Shown in pieces: positions 6,551 to 33,348 of a stretch of 40,228 nucleotides of DNA. Source of the DNA: Bacteroidota bacterium (lineage in GTDB: Bacteria; Bacteroidota; Bacteroidia; Bacteroidales; PUMT01). Below the pieces are notes generated by a model. The model did not search any database and was not told where the DNA came from. It was given only the letters and a program-made list of their open reading frames with translations. The stretch lies in the NCBI GenBank assembly GCA_003554865.1, contig PWHJ01000178.1, positions 1-40,228 of the forward strand, written 5' to 3'. The first letter of the stretch is position 1; every line of letters starts with the position of its first letter. Both the position numbers and the translations under genes were made by a program.

Positions 6551-7537
6551 ATGCATTTGAAAAACCTTGTCAATACAATTGACACCCATACAGCCGGTGG
6601 ACCTACCCGTGTTGTGGTATCCGGACTGCCTGATTTGAAGGGGGGGAGTGTTAGGGAAAAAATGGAGTACTTTAAAAGTTACCATGATCCTGTAAGGGCT
6701 ATGCTGATGCAGGAACCGCGTGGGCACTCCGGAATGTTCGGGGCCGTTCTTACTTCTCCATGCATTGCGGAGGCAGATCTTGGGGTGTTTTTCACCACCT
6801 CTTCGGGGTATCTTGATATGTGTGTCCACAGTGCCATAGGCGCCGCGGCAGCCGCATGTGAAACTGGAATGGCAGAGGCGAAAAAAAGTTTTTTGATGCT
6901 GGAGACACCGGCTGGCCTTATCAAAGTAAGCATAAACGGCAAAGACGGCTCCCCGTATTATACGATAACCACCAAACCGGCCTTTGTTTGCTCAACGGGA
7001 TATGAGGCCGGCTTTTGCGGTGAAGGGAAAATACCTGCGGATGTGGTTTTCAGCGGGGTCTGTTTTCTTATGGTGGATGCGGATAAGTCGGGAATAAAGG
7101 TTAACAGGGAAAGTGTGGGGGAAATTACCCGAACAGGTGTTGGCCTGTTATCTGAGTTCAACAAGGGTGGGGGTATGTTGTCGCCTTTTTCAGGCAAAAG
7201 GGAAAATGCGGCTATGGCTCTTTTTTACACCAATATTTCGCGCAACGAGGGGATGAACGCTGTAATTTCTGCCTCGGGAGCGATCGACAGATCACCCTGC
7301 GGAGCCGGTACAGGTGCAAAGATGGCACTTTTGCACTACAATAAATTGCTTGAGCCAAATGAGGTTTATACCAACAAAGGGGTAACCGGCACCGTAATGT
7401 GGGGTTTCTTGTCGGGTGAGAAAAAGGAGAAAGGCTTGACCCTGGTAACCCCCCATATAAGTTCTGAGGCTTTTGTAACGGGTTTTCATCAGTTTGCCGT
7501 TGACTGCAGGGACAACCTTAACCCTTTTCTTATATAG
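6551..7537 (+). CDS. proline racemase / hydroxyproline epimerase family enzyme
   Basis: A 328-residue cytosolic protein of the proline racemase family (PF05544). The N-terminus NTIDTHTAGGPTRVVVSG is the family signature. Both catalytic cysteines are present: Cys91 in DMCVHSAIG, where most members have MCGHG/A, and Cys250 in DRSPCGAGTGAK. Two cysteines favour racemase or epimerase chemistry over the trans-3-hydroxyproline dehydratase subgroup, in which a cysteine is replaced. The Gly-to-Val change beside Cys91 is unusual and may mark a different substrate. The gene follows the dehydrogenase by 52 nt and is probably in the same transcript. Alternative: 4-hydroxyproline 2-epimerase; sequence alone does not decide. 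Confidence 0.85.
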   Translation: MHLKNLVNTIDTHTAGGPTRVVVSGLPDLKGGSVREKMEYFKSYHDPVRAMLMQEPRGHSGMFGAVLTSPCIAEADLGVFFTTSSGYLDMCVHSAIGAAAAACETGMAEAKKSFLMLETPAGLIKVSINGKDGSPYYTITTKPAFVCSTGYEAGFCGEGKIPADVVFSGVCFLMVDADKSGIKVNRESVGEITRTGVGLLSEFNKGGGMLSPFSGKRENAAMALFYTNISRNEGMNAVISASGAIDRSPCGAGTGAKMALLHYNKLLEPNEVYTNKGVTGTVMWGFLSGEKKEKGLTLVTPHISSEAFVTGFHQFAVDCRDNLNPFLI

Positions 7538-7575
7538 AGGGTCAAAGAGGCTGCAAAATAATGCTGCACCTTTTG

Positions 7576-7691
7576 TCAGTCAGCCACTTCCGGCAGAAGC
7601 CTGATGCATTTTTCTCAGTCAGCCATCTTTTCGGCAGAAGCCTGATGCATTTTTCTCAGTCAGCCACCTTCTCGTGGGAAACTTCCTGCAT
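7576..7691 (-). repeat. tandem repeats of the methyltransferase 3' end including its stop codon
   Basis: On the minus strand GGCTGACTGA, the last codons of the methyltransferase gene, occurs three times, with the stop at 7656-7658 and copies at 7615-7621 and 7576-7582 (spacing 41 and 39 nt). The first downstream copy (7615-7650) reads as a complete mini-frame MHQASAEKMAD-stop, against the gene's own end MQEVSHEKVAD-stop (7656-7691): 7 of 11 residues agree and the length is identical. The third copy has lost two bases. The two downstream units share a long identical block with GCATCAGGCTTCTGCCG. Confidence 0.8.
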
Positions 7692-8291
7692 CTGCTTTTC
7701 AGGTTCTTTTTTCAGAGTCAGCAGTTTGAAATAGTCGAAAGCTCCCACTTTGCGTTCGTCAACAACCTCGAACCGGTCCAGGGATTTGATGTCTTTAATC
7801 TTAAAGTAAGAGGACAGCTTAAAGTGGTGGGAAAACCTGTTGAAAAACTTGTCAAGATATTTCATCCCGTTGTCGGGTGTTTCATGGTTTAAAATAAAAA
7901 GTAATCCGTCCTCTTTCAGCACCCTGTAGCTTTCCTCTATCATCCTGTCGGGGTTTTCGGTTACGGCAATTACGTGGCACAAGACCACATAATCAAAAAG
8001 ATTGTCTTCAAACTCGAGCTTTTCCCCGTTCATTACTTTCAGATCAACATTGGTGTATTTTTCTCTCTTTTTTGCTACCTGAATGGATTTGTCTGAAACA
8101 TCTATGCCCTGAATCTCGTGGTTTCTGTACTGGGGGATATGCGAACCTGTTCCAATTCCAACATCCAGAAGATTTCCCTTAGGCAGGGAATTGATAAATT
8201 CTACAAGTACTTTCTTCTGTGGTTTTAAAAAAAGATCTACAAGGGGATATACTGTTACGCAATTGTCATAAAACTTTTTTACTTCCATCAT
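7656..8291 (-). CDS. SAM-dependent class I methyltransferase (UbiE/PmtA-like)
   Basis: A 211-residue cytosolic protein. Motif I LLDVGIGTGS at 41-50 binds S-adenosylmethionine; an acidic residue at the end of the second strand (GIDVSDKSI) and the FDYVVLCHVIAVTENPDRMI and LKEDGLLFILNHE segments complete the Rossmann-like fold. The best matches by eye are UbiE and bacterial phosphatidylethanolamine N-methyltransferase types, which act on quinones or lipids, but the acceptor is not determined. It stands alone and converges with the racemase gene. The last 11 codons are imperfectly duplicated immediately downstream (see the repeat entry), so the C-terminus may have been extended or shortened recently. 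Confidence 0.8.
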   Translation of the reverse strand: MMEVKKFYDNCVTVYPLVDLFLKPQKKVLVEFINSLPKGNLLDVGIGTGSHIPQYRNHEIQGIDVSDKSIQVAKKREKYTNVDLKVMNGEKLEFEDNLFDYVVLCHVIAVTENPDRMIEESYRVLKEDGLLFILNHETPDNGMKYLDKFFNRFSHHFKLSSYFKIKDIKSLDRFEVVDERKVGAFDYFKLLTLKKEPEKQMQEVSHEKVAD

Positions 8292-8604
8292 AAGTTGTGG
8301 ATGTTTGTAAATTATTTTATTATTCTTTTTAAACGATAAAAAAGAATTCTTATTCCGTTAGGAATCAAGAAAGTGCTTTTGTATAAACTATGCAAATATC
8401 GTAAAAAATTGTGAAAATAAAAAAAGTGCATTCGCGGTGTTTCAGCAAATGCACTTTCTGCTTACGGACGGCCTGCTGGCGGCAGCCTTGTGTGAATTTG
8501 GGTTTATTCAGATGAAAGCCCCATTAGCTAAAGCTTACAAAAAGATATGCAGAAAGCATGGGGTTTACATCGGACTTTTTCCTCAGCCGCCTGCTTAAGG
8601 CACC
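8292..8604. other. spacer between the methyltransferase and bacterioferritin genes
   Basis: 313 nt without a convincing gene. It contains the minus-strand terminator at 8423-8457, a GC-rich patch with TGGCGGCAG near 8474, and at 8504-8517 a second copy of the last 14 bases of the bacterioferritin gene. The half next to the methyltransferase is AT-rich and should hold its promoter, but I could not assign a good -33/-7 pair. Confidence 0.6.
8423..8457 (-). terminator. intrinsic terminator downstream of bacterioferritin
   Basis: A 10-bp stem (AAAGTGCATT at 8423-8432 with its complement at 8448-8457) is followed on the minus strand by a run of T. It is correctly placed and oriented to end the bacterioferritin transcript, after about 150 nt of 3' untranslated sequence. 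Confidence 0.7.
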
Positions 8605-8618
8605 TTATTCAGATGAAA
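8504..8618 (-). repeat. 14-bp repeat of the bacterioferritin gene end
   Basis: TTTCATCTGAATAA on the minus strand is the exact end of the bacterioferritin gene (8605-8618) and recurs at 8504-8517, 101 nt downstream. The copy keeps the same last codons (Ser-Ser-Glu-stop). Nothing else between the copies aligns clearly. Confidence 0.6.
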
Positions 8619-9093
8619 AACTTTTGCTTCTTTCGATTGACTGCAGTGCCAGGTAGTTGTCGCCAAACTTTTTGAGGTTCTCCATCTCATCGTCAAACCT
8701 CTCAAAATGCTCTTCTTCATCTTCAACGAGCCTCTCAAAGAGTTTTTTTGTTACAGAGTCGTTGTTCTGGGAGCTGAGGTTTGCCCAGTTATTGTAATCT
8801 TCAGCTGCCTGGGTTTCCATTTTTGCAGCCATCTCCAGCATAGATTTTACATCATGCACCTTTTCAACGTTGGCTGAAAGTGTCATATCAACTTCCCCTT
8901 CAAGAAACAACACCCTCTCGGCAAGATGTTCGACATGCATCATTTCATCGACTGCAATTTTTTTGAAAAGTTTTGCCAGAAGGTCATAACCCTGGTCATC
9001 GCAATGAAAATGAAAATACATGTATTGGTGAACAGCCGACAGTTCGTCTCCTATTCCTTTGTTTAACAGATCAATACTTTTTTGTTTGTCCAT
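8605..9093 (-). CDS. bfr: bacterioferritin
   Basis: A 162-residue four-helix ferritin-like protein; E. coli Bfr is 158. All diiron ferroxidase ligands are present one position earlier than in E. coli: Glu17, Glu50, His53, Glu93, Glu126 and His129. Met51 corresponds to the haem-ligating methionine, and the LFLEG segment after helix B matches Bfr. It should assemble into a 24-subunit cytosolic shell that oxidises and stores iron and protects against peroxide. It is monocistronic with its own promoter (9151-9181) and terminator (8423-8457). A Dps or ferritin (Ftn) identity is less likely because of the haem methionine and the ligand spacing. Confidence 0.9.
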   Translation of the reverse strand: MDKQKSIDLLNKGIGDELSAVHQYMYFHFHCDDQGYDLLAKLFKKIAVDEMMHVEHLAERVLFLEGEVDMTLSANVEKVHDVKSMLEMAAKMETQAAEDYNNWANLSSQNNDSVTKKLFERLVEDEEEHFERFDDEMENLKKFGDNYLALQSIERSKSFSSE

Positions 9094-22105: not shown

Positions 22106-25100
22106 ATGCCCTTTATGAGCAATCTTATAATTTACAAAGCTTCAGCAGGATCGGGGAAAACCTTCAAACTCACAGAGGAGTTCCTCAAGCTTGCCCTTAC
22201 GGGAGATTTTCGCCGCATCCTTGCGGTTACTTTCACAAACAAGGCAACCGCCGAAATGAAGACACGTATAGTTGAGCAGCTTTCACTGCTCTCCTCCGGC
22301 GGGGAATCACCTTATTTAAGTGCGCTGGTAAAGGAGACCGGAACCGGTGAGGCAAAGGTCAGGGAAAAAGCCCGGGAGGTACTCAATGATATACTCCAGG
22401 GTTTTTCACGATTTTCGGTAGGGACTATCGACAGCTTTTTTCAGCGGATAATACGGGCTTTTGCAAGGGAGATATCACTTGAATCGGGCTTTGAGCTGGA
22501 GGTTGACAATATGCCTGTGCTTGAGAGGGCGATTGACCGTATGTTCCTTGAGGCAACTGAAAACAGGGAGCTTCTTGGCTGGCTTATTGACTTTGCGGGT
22601 GCAAAGATGAGTGAGGGGGCCTCGTGGAACTTTCAAAATGATGTAAAAAACCTCGGGCACTGCATATTCAGTGAAAACTACCAGCAATTCAGCGGCAGGC
22701 TTGCAGACAAGCTATCCGACAGGAAGTTCATGGACTCCTACAGGGAATCGCTTTTTGCAATAAAAAGCGGGTTTGAGAAAAAGATGAAGGAAAAAGGCGA
22801 CAGGGCACTTGGTATCATTGAAATAAAGGGGCTTGCGGTAGCCGACTTTTTGTACGGGCGTAACGGGGTGGCCGGCTATTTTGTGAATCTTTCAAAAGGG
22901 AAAAAATATGCTCCCCACAGCAGGGCACTGGCCGCATTGGATGAGCCGGAAAACTGGCATTCCAAAAGTTCCTCCCTGAAGGCTGAAATAACCGGTGCTT
23001 TTAATGACGGGCTCAATGACTGCCTCAGGGAGGCCGTGGAGACATACCGGCAGGAGTATCCGTCGTATGTGACAGCTCATCTGGTGCTGAATTATATATA
23101 TACGCTGGGTATTATGACCGACCTTGCTTCTCATGCAAGGGATTATGCCTCGGAGAACAATGTATTCCTGCTTTCCGATGTGCCCTCGCTGCTAAGCGGA
23201 ATAATTGGCGGGAATGATTCTCCCTTTGTATATGAGAAGACCGGTAGCTTTTACAAGCACTTTATGATAGATGAATTTCAGGATACATCAAGAGTTCAGT
23301 GGAATAATTTTTCCCCGCTTATTCTCAACAGTCTCTCGGAAGAGAAACGCAATGTGCTGGTAGGGGACGTGAAGCAGTCCATTTACCGCTGGCGTAACGG
23401 TGACTGGAAAATACTGGCCCGTGAGGTGCAGCAGCAGTTTTCCCCTTTTTCCCCCCGTATCGAGCCGCTTAAGGTGAACCGGCGCAGCTGCCCGAACATA
23501 GTGGAATTTAACAACCGCTTCTTCGGAATCGCTTCTTCGCTGATGGAGAACCAGTTCATGTCAGAGTGTGAGGGTGCACATTTAAGCGCTGATTTTGCAA
23601 GTCAAACCGGGGAAATGATAACGGGAGCTTACACCGGTCATGAGCAGCATATGTCGGAGGATTGTGGGGGGAAACAGGGGTGTGTAAGTGTGCAGTTTGT
23701 GGATGCCCCCCGGGGGTCTTCCTGGCGCGAGAGGGTTAATTCAGGTTTGCCGGAATTGATAGAGCGGCTGATTGCCAAGGGGTACCACCTGAAAGATATT
23801 GCAGTGCTGGTTCGAAACAACAGTGACGGACGGGAGGTTGCCTCTACTTTGCTTGAATGGGGTGCCGGTTGCGAAAAGCCTGATATATCAGGCAGGGATT
23901 CCTCTAAAACAGAGGGAGAGAGAAAACGGCTTGATTTTATATCCGATGAGTTCCTTTTGCTCAATGAGTCTGTTTCGGTGAGATTTCTCACAGCCGTCCT
24001 TTCTTATCTTGACAATCCCTCAGACAGTGTGAGCAAAGCGCTTATGGTTAATGAATACTACAGGTATATAAGGGAGGCGGATGATTCTTTGGATCTTCAC
24101 CGTCTGTTTTCATCGGCTTCCTCTGGCTCCACCGATGAATGGGAGGCTTTTTTACCTTCCGGCTTTACCCGGGAACGTCAAAGACTAAGGCAAATGCCTC
24201 TTTATGAGCTGACAGAGGAGTTGATATCCCTTTTCGGGTTGGATCAGTTGCAGGGGGAGATACCCTATCTGACCGCTTTTCAGGATGCTGTTCTGCGATT
24301 TTCTTCCAGGGAGGCGGCAGGTATTCACTCTTTTCTCCGGTGGTGGGAGGAGAACGGTCATAAGGAATCGGTAAGCGGCAGCGACAGTCAGGATGCCGTT
24401 CGAATCATGACAATTCACAAGGCAAAGGGACTGCAATTCAGGGTTGTGCTGCTGCCTTACTGCGACTGGTACACTGATCATAACCCTAATCATGAGAACA
24501 TTGTATGGTGCAGGCCTGCCGGGGAGCCGTTCAACCGGCTTGAGCTTGTGCCTGTGAGATATAAAAAGGAGATGGCCTCAAGCTTATTTGCAGGGGAGTA
24601 TTTTGCCGAAAAGATGCAGGTTTATGTTGACAACCTGAATCTTCTCTATGTTGCCTTCACCCGTGCGCAGGAGGAGCTTCACCTGTTTGCCCCTTCACCT
24701 TCAAGGGAAAAGATAAAAAAGGAGGGGATCAAAAAAGTCCCGGATCTTATATTGAGGACTACAGAAGACTCGGGTGATATGAAAAGGGAGGATCCCCCGA
24801 AAGGTTTTACCGTTGGAGCTTTTTCAGAAGCAGGGGAACGGGAAGCGGAGAAAACCGAAGATGAGCTGATGTTATCTTCCTATCCTTCTGCGTCTTACCA
24901 CGGGAAACTGAGGCTGAGACTGGCAGGTGAGGGGTTTTTCAAAGGTGAGGGGGAGAAAAGAGAGAGTGTGAACACGGGAAAGATAATGCATGAGGCTTTC
25001 CGGCATATTGAAACGGCTGCCGATATTGACAGGGCTGTAAACCGTCTATATATTGATGGACTGATCAATTTAGCCCGGTCAAAAGAGCTTCCCCGCAAAA

Positions 25101-25405
25101 TCAGGGAGCTTGTAGCCAATCCCGATGTAGCCGGCTGGTTTGACGGGAGCCGTAAGGTTAAAACTGAAGCGGAAATACTCCTCAGCGGAGGGGGAACAAA
25201 GCGGCCCGACAGGGTGATGATTGACGGGGATGAGGCTATTGTGGCCGATTATAAGTTCGGCACCCGGAAACACTCCTCACACTTCAGTCAGGTAAGGGAT
25301 TATATGCGGCAACTCTCCCGTATGGGGTACCGGAGTGTGAAAGGTTATATCTGGTATGCCCTTCTCGGGGAAACCCATCAGGTTAAGCTGAATGGTGAGG
25401 ATTAA
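22106..25405 (+). CDS. addA: AddA-like UvrD/Rep helicase-nuclease
   Basis: A 1099-residue SF1A helicase. Walker A is ASAGSGKT near 12-19, AVTFTNKATAEMKTR is motif Ia, the Walker B DEFQDTS is at 389-395, and QSIYRWR, TIHKAKGLQFRVVLLP and YVAFTRAQEELHLF are motifs III to VI. The C-terminal RecB-type nuclease is visible as DRVMIDGDEAIVADYKFG with Asp1048 and Lys1050. It should process double-strand DNA ends together with the AddB-like protein encoded two genes downstream, generating 3' tails for RecA. The start may be 22106 or 22115. Protein divergence from Bacillus AddA is large, as is usual in Bacteroidota. Confidence 0.88.
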   Translation: MPFMSNLIIYKASAGSGKTFKLTEEFLKLALTGDFRRILAVTFTNKATAEMKTRIVEQLSLLSSGGESPYLSALVKETGTGEAKVREKAREVLNDILQGFSRFSVGTIDSFFQRIIRAFAREISLESGFELEVDNMPVLERAIDRMFLEATENRELLGWLIDFAGAKMSEGASWNFQNDVKNLGHCIFSENYQQFSGRLADKLSDRKFMDSYRESLFAIKSGFEKKMKEKGDRALGIIEIKGLAVADFLYGRNGVAGYFVNLSKGKKYAPHSRALAALDEPENWHSKSSSLKAEITGAFNDGLNDCLREAVETYRQEYPSYVTAHLVLNYIYTLGIMTDLASHARDYASENNVFLLSDVPSLLSGIIGGNDSPFVYEKTGSFYKHFMIDEFQDTSRVQWNNFSPLILNSLSEEKRNVLVGDVKQSIYRWRNGDWKILAREVQQQFSPFSPRIEPLKVNRRSCPNIVEFNNRFFGIASSLMENQFMSECEGAHLSADFASQTGEMITGAYTGHEQHMSEDCGGKQGCVSVQFVDAPRGSSWRERVNSGLPELIERLIAKGYHLKDIAVLVRNNSDGREVASTLLEWGAGCEKPDISGRDSSKTEGERKRLDFISDEFLLLNESVSVRFLTAVLSYLDNPSDSVSKALMVNEYYRYIREADDSLDLHRLFSSASSGSTDEWEAFLPSGFTRERQRLRQMPLYELTEELISLFGLDQLQGEIPYLTAFQDAVLRFSSREAAGIHSFLRWWEENGHKESVSGSDSQDAVRIMTIHKAKGLQFRVVLLPYCDWYTDHNPNHENIVWCRPAGEPFNRLELVPVRYKKEMASSLFAGEYFAEKMQVYVDNLNLLYVAFTRAQEELHLFAPSPSREKIKKEGIKKVPDLILRTTEDSGDMKREDPPKGFTVGAFSEAGEREAEKTEDELMLSSYPSASYHGKLRLRLAGEGFFKGEGEKRESVNTGKIMHEAFRHIETAADIDRAVNRLYIDGLINLARSKELPRKIRELVANPDVAGWFDGSRKVKTEAEILLSGGGTKRPDRVMIDGDEAIVADYKFGTRKHSSHFSQVRDYMRQLSRMGYRSVKGYIWYALLGETHQVKLNGED

Positions 25406-25417
25406 AAACAGAGGTTT

Positions 25418-26395
25418 ATGAGTGAGCAAAAGATGGATAATGGTAAAATGATTTTCCCGTGGGGCACATCACGCAGGTTTAATGCCTACCCTGATCACCT
25501 TCGGGGCATTTTTGGCAGCAGGGTTCAGAAGGTGAGCGTAAATGCAGGGTTTACATGTCCGAACCGCGATGGCACCGTGGGCTACGGGGGGTGCGCCTAC
25601 TGCAACAACCTTGCTTTTGTTCCCTCTTACTGCAAAGAAACTCTCCCTGTCAAAGAGCAGATAGAGAAAGGGATCGGTTTCCACCGCAGAAGATACAGGC
25701 GGGCTCACAAATATATTGCATATTTTCAGTCATATACGAACACCTATTCCGGGGTGGGGAGCTTAAAAAAGCTTTACAGCGAAGCTTTGTCGGTTCCCGG
25801 GGTGGTCGGACTGGCCATCGGCACACGCCCGGATTGCATTGATGAGGGGATACTGGATTATTTGCAGGAGCTTTCCGGGAAATATTATATAATTGTTGAA
25901 TACGGCTTTGAGTCGTGCTATGATCACACTCTTGAGAGGATCAACCGTGGCCATGGTTTTGCCGCATCCCGGGAGGCGGTTATAAAAACCCGGGAACGGG
26001 GAATAAGAACGGGTGCGCATATTATATTCGGACTTCCCGGTGAAACAGAGAAGGATATGATAAGGCAGGCAACAATACTTTCAGAGCTTCCGCTTGATAC
26101 TGTAAAGTTCCGCCAGCTTCAGATAGTCAAAGGCACACCCATGGCCCGGGAATATTTTGAAGACCCCTCAAAGTTCCGGCTTTTCAGGCTTGAGGAGTAT
26201 CTCGATTTTATGGTGAGTTTCATAGAATTGCTCAACCCTTCATTTGTGGTCGAGAGGATCGCGGGGGAAGTTCCTCCCCGCTACCTGGCCGTTCCGTTAA
26301 GATGGGGAGTGAGGAATGAAACGATAGTTGATATGTTCGAAAAAAAGCTTAAAGAGGCAGGCACGTGGCAGGGTAAAAAGTACAGCAATAATTAA
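25418..26395 (+). CDS. TIGR01212 family radical SAM protein (YhcC-like)
   Basis: A 325-residue protein. The radical SAM cluster is in GFTCPNRDGTVGYGGCAYCNN with Cys47, Cys59 and Cys62; the wide first gap is characteristic of TIGR01212/YhcC and differs from the common CxxxCxxC. FQSYTNTYSGV, GTRPDCID and GLPGETEKDM are further family motifs. Its reaction is unknown. It sits 12 nt after addA and 11 nt before addB, so all three are almost certainly one transcript and perhaps translationally coupled. A functional tie to DNA-end processing or to [4Fe-4S] supply for AddB is speculation. Confidence 0.88.
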   Translation: MSEQKMDNGKMIFPWGTSRRFNAYPDHLRGIFGSRVQKVSVNAGFTCPNRDGTVGYGGCAYCNNLAFVPSYCKETLPVKEQIEKGIGFHRRRYRRAHKYIAYFQSYTNTYSGVGSLKKLYSEALSVPGVVGLAIGTRPDCIDEGILDYLQELSGKYYIIVEYGFESCYDHTLERINRGHGFAASREAVIKTRERGIRTGAHIIFGLPGETEKDMIRQATILSELPLDTVKFRQLQIVKGTPMAREYFEDPSKFRLFRLEEYLDFMVSFIELLNPSFVVERIAGEVPPRYLAVPLRWGVRNETIVDMFEKKLKEAGTWQGKKYSNN

Positions 26396-26406
26396 AAAGA
26401 AATGAT

Positions 26407-29265
26407 ATGAACCCTTTTTTAAAAGAAGTTGCACAATATCTCTATGACAATTACGCGCAGAGGCTGGACTCTTGTGCGCTTGTTTTTCCCAACCGCCGGG
26501 CGGCGCTTTTCTTTTCCCGTCACTTGTCATCACTTATAGAAAAGCCTGTATGGTCTCCGCGAATTTACACCATCTCGGAGCTGATGGGGGAGCTTTCCGG
26601 TATGGAGCAGGCCGATCCGATATTGCTTAATTTCCGCCTTTACAGCATTTACCGGCAGGTTACGGGAAGCCGTGAGAGCTTTGATAAATTTTACGGCTGG
26701 GGAGAGGTGCTTTTGTCAGATTTTGATGAGATCGACAAATATATGGTTGATGCCGGGGCGCTTTTTAAGAATGTTGCCGGACTGAAGGAGATAGACAATG
26801 TTTTTGATTTTCTCAGTGAAAACCAGCGTGATATAATAAAAAACTTCTGGAAAAACTTTGCCGGTGAATACTCTCAGGAACAGAGAGAATTTTTGTACAT
26901 CTGGGAGGCGCTTTCCGGTATATATGAAAAGTTTACCGAAAGTCTGGCTTCTTCGAATATTGCCTATGAGGGAATGATGTACAGAAAGGTTGCCGGCGGA
27001 ATAAAAAAGAGGGAGGAGCCAAAGCTTGAATATGAGAGGTATTTTATTGCCGGCTTCAATGCTTTGACCCCCTGCGAAAAAGAGCTTTTTAAATATTTGC
27101 AGAAAAGGGGAAAAGCCGCCTTTTTCTGGGATTATGACCGGTATTATACATCCGGGGGAGATCACCGTGCGGGTCTTTTTATGCGCCAAAACCTGAAGGA
27201 TTTCCCCCCGGCGGATTTCAGCCATGACCCTGAAAAAATGGCTAAAAGCAATCCGAAGGTGACCGTTGTTTCCGCCCCCGGCAACACTGCCCAGGCTAAA
27301 CTGACCGGGCTGCTGCCCGGGCTTTTCGGGACCGAAGAGGAGCTTCAGACTGCCGTGGTTTTGCCCGACGAGGAGCTTCTGGTTCCCCTTCTTTCATCTC
27401 TTCCCCAAAAAGTCGGGGAAATAAATGTGACAATGGGGTACCCCCTTAAGGATACTGCCGTTTTCAGCTTTATTATGCACCTGCTTTCACTTTCCAAAAA
27501 TTCCCGGGTAAGGGAAAACAAAACGGAGTTTTACCACAGGGACGTTCTCTCTTTACTGAATCATCCCTGTTTTCGCAGGCACGGCGCAGAGCGGGTAAGG
27601 GAAAAAACCGACAGGATAGTCAGGGAGAATATGATTTATGTTGAGCAAAAGGAGCTGGCTGAACCCGGACTGCCGGAGATGGTTTTCCAAAGTACCTCCG
27701 GTGTGGGTGAATATATTGACCGGCTGCTCAATATTTTGGTTTTTCTCTCGGAAGGGGAGACCGGGGAGAATGAAGAGGAAGATTCCGGAGGGATCCCCGG
27801 CAACGAGATCATTTACCGTTTATATACCGGTGTCAACAGACTGGGAGAGGTGCTGAAGACGGCCGGGATGGAAATTGGTTTTCCCACTTTTGTTAAATTA
27901 CTTAAAAAAGTGCTTTTCTCAATGCGCATCCCGTTTTACGGCGAGCCTCTTAAAGGTGTTCAGGTTATGGGGGTGCTGGAGACCCGCACACTTGATTTCC
28001 GGCATCTAATCTGGCTTTCAATGAACGAGGGAGTTTTTCCTGCAAGATCGCAGTCCTCTTCCTTTATTCCCTATAATTTGCGTAAGGCTTTTGGGTTGCC
28101 CCTTGACGAGGATTACGATGCGGTTTATGCCTATTATTTTTACCGGTTACTCCACAGTGCCGAAAAGGTTACCCTTGTTTATAATTCAAGGGGCGATGGA
28201 CTCTTTACGGGGGAAAAGAGCAGGTTCATCCACCAGCTGAAGCACAATGACCGCTTCAGTGTGGAGGAAAAGGATCTTGCCGTCAGGGTACATCCTGTAA
28301 CATCAAAACCTGTGGTTATTGAAAAAAGCGATGATATACTCCGACGTCTCCAGGGCTATACATCTAACGCCGCGCGTCCGCATTCCCTTTCCCCCAGCTC
28401 TGTAAATACTTACATTGATTGCTCCCTGAAGTTTTATTTCCGGTATGTTGCCGGATTGCCCGAGACTGAAAAAGTCGAGGGGGAGGTTGACCCGGCGCTT
28501 TTCGGCAGTTTGCTTCATGATGCGGCATACAGGCTGTATGAGCCCTTTAAGGGGAAGGTGGTTGAAGGCTCCCGTCTTGAGGAAATTGAAAAAGACGATA
28601 AGCTTTTGAGCGATACAGTGCGCTATGCTTTTTCAAAAGTGTTTTTCGGTGAAAGGGAATCCAAACCGGAGCCGGAGGGGAGGAATCTTGTAATTTCGCA
28701 GGTTTTGCAGAAATACCTCAGGCAGCTGCTTAGGCGTGACAGGGAGCTTGCTCCTTTTACTGTTGTGGGACTTGAGCAGTATTGTACAATGTATCTTGAT
28801 GCCGGTCAGGGTACCGGCAAGGTTAAGCTGGGAGGGGTGATAGACCGTGTTGACAGGGTGAACGGGGTTGCAAGGGTGGCCGATTACAAAACCGGGGGTG
28901 ATGATACAGGCTTTAAAGATATTGACTCCCTTTTTGAAGAGGGGGATCCCCGCAGGAACAAAAGTGTTTTTCAGCTTTTTTTGTACTCGCTTATTTACGG
29001 GTCTTCGCTTGACGGGGATTACAGGATTTCACCGGCTCTTTACAGGGTAAAAAAGCTTTTCGGCAACGATCCCTTTACCGTGGCAGAAAAAACCGGAAGA
29101 TCCGCCAGAAAGGAAGTTACTGATTTTTCGCTTTATGCAGGGGATTTTGAAAAAAGGCTAAAGGAGACCCTTTCCGCCTTGTTTGATCCTGCCAAACCCT
29201 TTGAGCAGGCGGCTGACACTCAAATATGCTCTTTTTGCCCCTACACAGGCATCTGCCACAGGTAA
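26407..29265 (+). CDS. addB: AddB-like PD-(D/E)XK nuclease with iron-sulfur cluster
   Basis: A 952-residue protein. The N-terminal region CALVFPNRRAALFFSRHL resembles the inactivated helicase start of AddB; no intact Walker A is seen. The middle keeps degenerate helicase motifs (GVQVMGVLETRTLDFRHLIWLSMNEGVFP). The C-terminal nuclease has GGVIDRVDRV (Asp813) and VADYKTG (Asp826, Lys828). Cys672 (YIDCSLKFYF) plus Cys941, Cys944 and Cys950 (CSFCPYTGIC) form the AddB-type four-cysteine iron-sulfur site that encloses the nuclease domain. With AddA it should cut and resect double-strand breaks. It is the last gene of the three-gene operon. Confidence 0.86.
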   Translation: MNPFLKEVAQYLYDNYAQRLDSCALVFPNRRAALFFSRHLSSLIEKPVWSPRIYTISELMGELSGMEQADPILLNFRLYSIYRQVTGSRESFDKFYGWGEVLLSDFDEIDKYMVDAGALFKNVAGLKEIDNVFDFLSENQRDIIKNFWKNFAGEYSQEQREFLYIWEALSGIYEKFTESLASSNIAYEGMMYRKVAGGIKKREEPKLEYERYFIAGFNALTPCEKELFKYLQKRGKAAFFWDYDRYYTSGGDHRAGLFMRQNLKDFPPADFSHDPEKMAKSNPKVTVVSAPGNTAQAKLTGLLPGLFGTEEELQTAVVLPDEELLVPLLSSLPQKVGEINVTMGYPLKDTAVFSFIMHLLSLSKNSRVRENKTEFYHRDVLSLLNHPCFRRHGAERVREKTDRIVRENMIYVEQKELAEPGLPEMVFQSTSGVGEYIDRLLNILVFLSEGETGENEEEDSGGIPGNEIIYRLYTGVNRLGEVLKTAGMEIGFPTFVKLLKKVLFSMRIPFYGEPLKGVQVMGVLETRTLDFRHLIWLSMNEGVFPARSQSSSFIPYNLRKAFGLPLDEDYDAVYAYYFYRLLHSAEKVTLVYNSRGDGLFTGEKSRFIHQLKHNDRFSVEEKDLAVRVHPVTSKPVVIEKSDDILRRLQGYTSNAARPHSLSPSSVNTYIDCSLKFYFRYVAGLPETEKVEGEVDPALFGSLLHDAAYRLYEPFKGKVVEGSRLEEIEKDDKLLSDTVRYAFSKVFFGERESKPEPEGRNLVISQVLQKYLRQLLRRDRELAPFTVVGLEQYCTMYLDAGQGTGKVKLGGVIDRVDRVNGVARVADYKTGGDDTGFKDIDSLFEEGDPRRNKSVFQLFLYSLIYGSSLDGDYRISPALYRVKKLFGNDPFTVAEKTGRSARKEVTDFSLYAGDFEKRLKETLSALFDPAKPFEQAADTQICSFCPYTGICHR

Positions 29266-33205: not shown

Positions 33206-33260
33206 TTTGAAATTATTTTTAATCGCTTCACGGGAATTTAATTGTTTCCGGCCGGGTTGA

Positions 33261-33348
33261 ATTACTCCCTGTTGCCGCCACCCGGTTACTTCCTGGAGGA
33301 ATTACTCCCTGTTGCCGCCACGCGGTCAGGGTCATGTTTAATTACTCC
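33261..33348 (-). repeat. 40-nt direct repeat in the aroF-cysE gap, in register with the aroF stop
   Basis: On the plus strand ATTACTCCCTGTTGCCGCCAC begins at 33261 and again at 33301, exactly 40 nt apart, and 26 of the first 27 bases of the units agree. A further 40 nt on, at 33341, the end of aroF begins with ATTACTCC (the last codons and stop on the minus strand). The unit contains TGGCGGCA on the minus strand, also found near 8474. Confidence 0.75.

Follow-up and report, generated by a model that had tools for sequence, protein, structure and literature searches.

The question raised by this locus is why the end of a gene, stop codon included, should be followed directly by two copies of itself, and whether these copies serve any purpose. 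The window, that is, the whole stretch of DNA analysed (40,228 nt), comes from a draft genome (243 contigs; contamination estimated at 4.3%), and the repeat lies in it between a methyltransferase gene and a convergent neighbour. An earlier note on this DNA had described the last 11 codons and the stop of the methyltransferase as recurring downstream at 41 and 39 nt, with a similar peptide readable in the first copy. The coordinates, the spacing and the peptide reading were all found to be correct by repeat finders, TRF and alignments. The features concerned are the following.

6551-7537, plus strand: proline racemase family gene, the convergent neighbour (Pro_racemase, E 1.4e-69)
7656-8291, minus strand: SAM-dependent methyltransferase gene, 211 aa (Methyltransf_11, E 2.7e-19)
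7656-7658, minus strand: methyltransferase stop codon, TGA
7691-7656, minus strand: unit copy within the gene, last 11 codons and stop, 36 nt
7655-7615, minus strand: spacer copy 1, 41 nt, with TGA at its end
7614-7576, minus strand: spacer copy 2, 39 nt, with TGA at its end

The three copies are arranged head to tail. The gene ends in ATGCAGGAAGTTTCCCACGAGAAGGTGGCTGACTGA (minus strand), and the spacer copies read GAAAAATGCATCAGGCTTCTGCCGAAAAGATGGCTGACTGA (copy 1, 41 nt) and GAAAAATGCATCAGGCTTCTGCCGGAAGTGGCTGACTGA (copy 2, 39 nt). Copy 1 translates as MHQASAEKMAD-stop and the gene tail as MQEVSHEKVAD-stop, and the frame of copy 2 is shifted because it is 2 nt shorter. This peptide-like reading with its kept stop follows from the copying of a coding tail and is therefore no sign of translation. 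Few differences separate the two spacer copies, namely one substitution and two single-base gaps across 41 columns, and their alignment score was 33, while the maximum among 5000 shuffles was 18. The gene copy stands furthest from the other two, with 27 of 36 positions identical to copy 1 and an alignment score of 18 that was reached by 2 of 5000 shuffles. TRF reported the array with a period of 41, 2.4 copies and a score of 164, at the top of the 12 TRF rows for the window, and a separate repeat finder recovered the same array. Furthermore, the 12-mer GTGGCTGACTGA, with at most one mismatch, occurred three times in the window, always within the array, against 0.10 occurrences expected. An assembly artefact is an unlikely source, since the copies differ among themselves; with copies this nearly identical, their true number could be undercounted. 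The copies thus form a head-to-tail array whose unit falls in the ~10-100 bp range of minisatellites and extends across the stop codon of the gene, and the array belongs to the stop-overlapping kind of minisatellite, known here from one genome of the species.

It is very probable that the array is an ordinary minisatellite that arose by neutral tandem duplication of about 40 nt across the 3' boundary and stop codon of the gene. A first duplication would have taken in the final codons together with the stop and 5 nt of the spacer and placed a copy of them downstream, a more recent one would have yielded the two near-identical spacer copies, and one of these would then have lost 2 nt; this two-step order is suggested by the similarity among the copies. 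Slippage or template switching would be the molecular cause, and this, like neutrality, draws on established knowledge of bacterial tandem repeats. A duplication at the tail is tolerated because the upstream copy leaves the protein and its stop unchanged; the equivalent event at a start codon or within a gene would more often be harmful.

Comparison with relatives places the event at the level of this lineage. At the orthologous locus of a genome of the same genus (G001), which carries a close orthologue, the order of ferritin, methyltransferase and racemase genes is maintained, a ferritin-like gene being located behind the methyltransferase gene in the window as well. In that genome, neither the array nor the spacer is present, and the reading frames of the methyltransferase and the racemase overlap by 62 nt. 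The array DNA gave a single match in its own genome and none in the 15 other family genomes searched, and therefore the array arose in this lineage, or was lost elsewhere. On the same grounds, a dispersed or mobile element resembling the mycobacterial interspersed repetitive units (MIRUs) was rejected. At E <= 1e-30, the methyltransferase itself was found in its own genome only, among 119 genomes of the order, and three distant relatives came from named genomes.

The direction of copying could also be reversed: the spacer repeat may have come first, and the methyltransferase may have gained its C-terminal tail from it by losing an earlier stop. The C-terminus of the methyltransferase is not conserved relative to that in G001, where the protein has a different ending, and the tail could thus have been taken from the spacer repeat. 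However, the gene copy has diverged further than the two spacer copies, as would fit, without proving, a greater age. In addition, another case in the family argues against this direction. In G015, which belongs to another genus of the same family, the repeated 79-nt piece at locus L133 7600-8703 codes for the C-terminal end of a UDP-GlcNAc 2-epimerase, and the wecB model TIGR00236 spans residues 4-364 of the 367 in this protein, so that the gene tail is ancestral there and the spacer copies are derived. We therefore consider an origin of the methyltransferase tail from the spacer to be very unlikely, and duplication of the gene tail into the spacer remains our preferred reading.

The earlier note had also suggested a local duplication mechanism acting at the 3' end, and that such tails may be a recurring feature of the genome, to be checked by searching for gene tails that recur downstream and comparing the result with shuffles. 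In our test, the last 40 nt of each gene were sought in the following 150 nt by ungapped alignment (+1/-2, score >=12, low complexity filtered), with a mirror test at starts and expectations from dinucleotide shuffles; genes were simple longest-ORF models. In the genome of the window (G000), of which 813,477 of 3,214,845 bases (25%) were sampled, 5 of 634 tails matched, where shuffles gave 0.4, and at starts the count was 2 of 639, where they gave 1.2. A smaller sample of this genome had given 6 of 462 tails, including an A-rich low-complexity case (L043) that was later filtered out. The counts for tails and starts were 2/181 and 0/180 in G001, 1/212 and 1/214 in G002 (also of the family), and 8/215 and 2/216 in G015. 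In the controls they were 0/92 and 0/89 (G030), 0/166 and 1/164 (G017), and 0/230 and 0/225 (E. coli K-12).

When the sampled parts of the four family genomes were pooled, 16 of 1242 tails matched against 0.6 expected from shuffles, two of the 16 (L127 9078 and L127 11474) belonging to one array, and 5 of 1249 starts matched, one of which (L129 2064) is part of an array already counted at a 3' end. The pooled controls gave 0 of 488 tails. In Fisher tests, tails differed from starts with p = 0.016 and the family from the controls with p = 0.009; these values assume independent hits, an assumption that does not hold strictly. The first comparison is weakened because start positions are approximate in longest-ORF models, and the second is based on three control genomes. 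Several of the matches, with scores of just 12-14, may be due to chance. The excess over shuffles and the occurrence of cases in all four family genomes support local duplication at gene 3' ends as well as its recurrence; the lack of any excess, which the earlier note had named as a refutation, was not observed. Other gene ends in the family show the same type of event with unrelated units. The L055 array DNA, searched in its own genome, occupied one locus there.

A scan by position, restricted to genes of at least 150 aa, gave matches in the family for 14 of 1026 tails, 3 of 1044 mid-gene positions, 5 of 1044 positions 300 nt before the stop and 2 of 1029 heads, and for 0 of 405 control tails. 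In the first 40 nt past the stop, repeats were equally common in controls (7/403, four of the seven in E. coli with spacings of 98-101 nt) and in the family (19/1022). The mark of the family is therefore the reach of repeats into gene tails, not their presence within spacers. Likewise, the density of TRF arrays per 100 kb of spacer does not track the family boundary, being 6.9 (G000), 12.2 (G001), 3.2 (G002) and 34.9 (G015) in the family and 9.0 (G030), 31.6 (G017) and 3.5 (E. coli) in the controls. A mutational process of the family could be proposed that preferentially duplicates 40-100 nt across gene 3' ends, copying tails into spacers, from which they would sometimes be recaptured as new C-termini; template switching at sites where replication encounters the ends of transcription would be one example. 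We regard such a process as unlikely.

Several arrays were observed in passing. The array at L127 11180-11488 (G015), with a 43-bp unit in 7.2 copies and 95% matches, takes up the whole intergenic space between two convergent genes and contributes to the tails of both; it is likely a VNTR. Related tandem units of ~70 bp occur in G001 at or near a contig end (L063 1-359 and L074 11304-11469), which suggests a dispersed family of tandem repeats that breaks the assembly. At L108 7993-9231 in G017, there is a tandem array of tRNA-like genes (seven by ARAGORN), four with a two-base anticodon only and the rest assigned as Val, Val and Phe(AAA), which may be degraded tRNA copies.

Weaker cases had been suggested in the window after bfr and aroF, for which the relevant features are these.

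33255-33348, minus strand: another stop-overlapping array like that of the methyltransferase, with 2.3 copies at period 40, in contact with the DAHP synthase stop codon
33342-34373, minus strand: DAHP synthase (aroF) gene
8491-8618, minus strand: bfr tail repeat, a weak third case in which the final 14 nt of the gene recur
8605-9093, minus strand: ferritin-like (bfr) gene

At aroF there is a second tandem array. The bfr case amounts to 14 identical nt, TTTCATCTGAATAA, found again 101 nt downstream of the gene. The aroF array fell below the score threshold of the tail scan; it is outside the 16 family matches and was entered manually as case 17. Elsewhere in the window (22106-29265), we observed genes for a UvrD-like helicase (1099 aa) that has a weak Cas4-like match at its C-terminus, for a radical SAM protein, and for a protein of 952 aa whose C-terminal domain is of the PD-(D/E)XK type. 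The arrangement resembles a pair of the AddAB type separated by a radical SAM gene.

No support for a function of the tail copies was seen. According to the earlier note, they might form a back-up stop or tail element, which would offer a second chance of termination after read-through. TGA is indeed kept in both spacer copies of the methyltransferase, and 11 of the 17 cases hold some stop at the copied position, although in three of these (L017, L127 12484 and L133 7600) it is a different stop. However, a tandem stop, in which a second in-frame stop comes soon after the first, was not found at the methyltransferase: the stops of the spacer copies lie at +41 and +80, out of frame with the gene, and read-through would meet no in-frame stop before +114. 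Among all 17 cases, the copy is in frame in seven, against about six expected by chance, and provides the first in-frame stop in two. The back-up stop was rejected on reading frame and has next to no probability in our view. An RNA element repeated at the transcript's 3' end, acting as a terminator, as stabilising hairpins or as a multi-copy protein-binding site, would suit the position of the copies past the stop and between convergent genes. Against this, the fold z-score of the array was 0.25, with values from -1.76 to 1.99 across eight regions, and the array DNA is single in its genome, as is that of another array. No Rfam family matched in the window, and a terminator scan of 7300-8700 gave 1 against 1.7 in shuffles, which is the background level. 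On these results a structural role in RNA was rejected, and we hold an RNA element to be highly improbable.

Taken alone, the methyltransferase array matters little, and is most probably a neutral remnant at the end of a gene. Should the excess at tails across the family hold in complete genomes, it would provide a natural set of cases for asking how tandem duplications at gene ends arise, and whether tail duplications lead to turnover of C-termini and stop positions.

Stop-overlapping repeats have already been described, and the frequency of tail copies in this family is the sole mildly new point; no published account of such repeats in this bacterial group was found in the literature searched. 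MIRUs form one dispersed, apparently mobile family, unlike the methyltransferase unit, which has a single locus in its genome. The likeness to them lies in short repeats that touch codons at gene ends (PMC12548453). Of the 88 VNTRs described in a study of Yersinia pestis, 16 lie across a gene end, with stops (10) more commonly overlapped than starts (6), as in the family studied here (PMC3689786). The loci of Y. pestis differ in copy number among strains, whereas one genome of the species is available here, and most of their units are 7-21 bp, whereas those of the clear arrays here are 39-55 bp (PMC3689786). Its authors expect a weaker effect of VNTRs at stops, but the stop-overlapping loci showed lower diversity than they had anticipated, in which they see possible selection (PMC3689786); this low diversity is a point against pure neutrality. 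The tandem units described there take in the stop codon of the gene, as the methyltransferase unit does, and one of the stop-overlapping units, M76, is likewise 41 bp long (PMC3689786).
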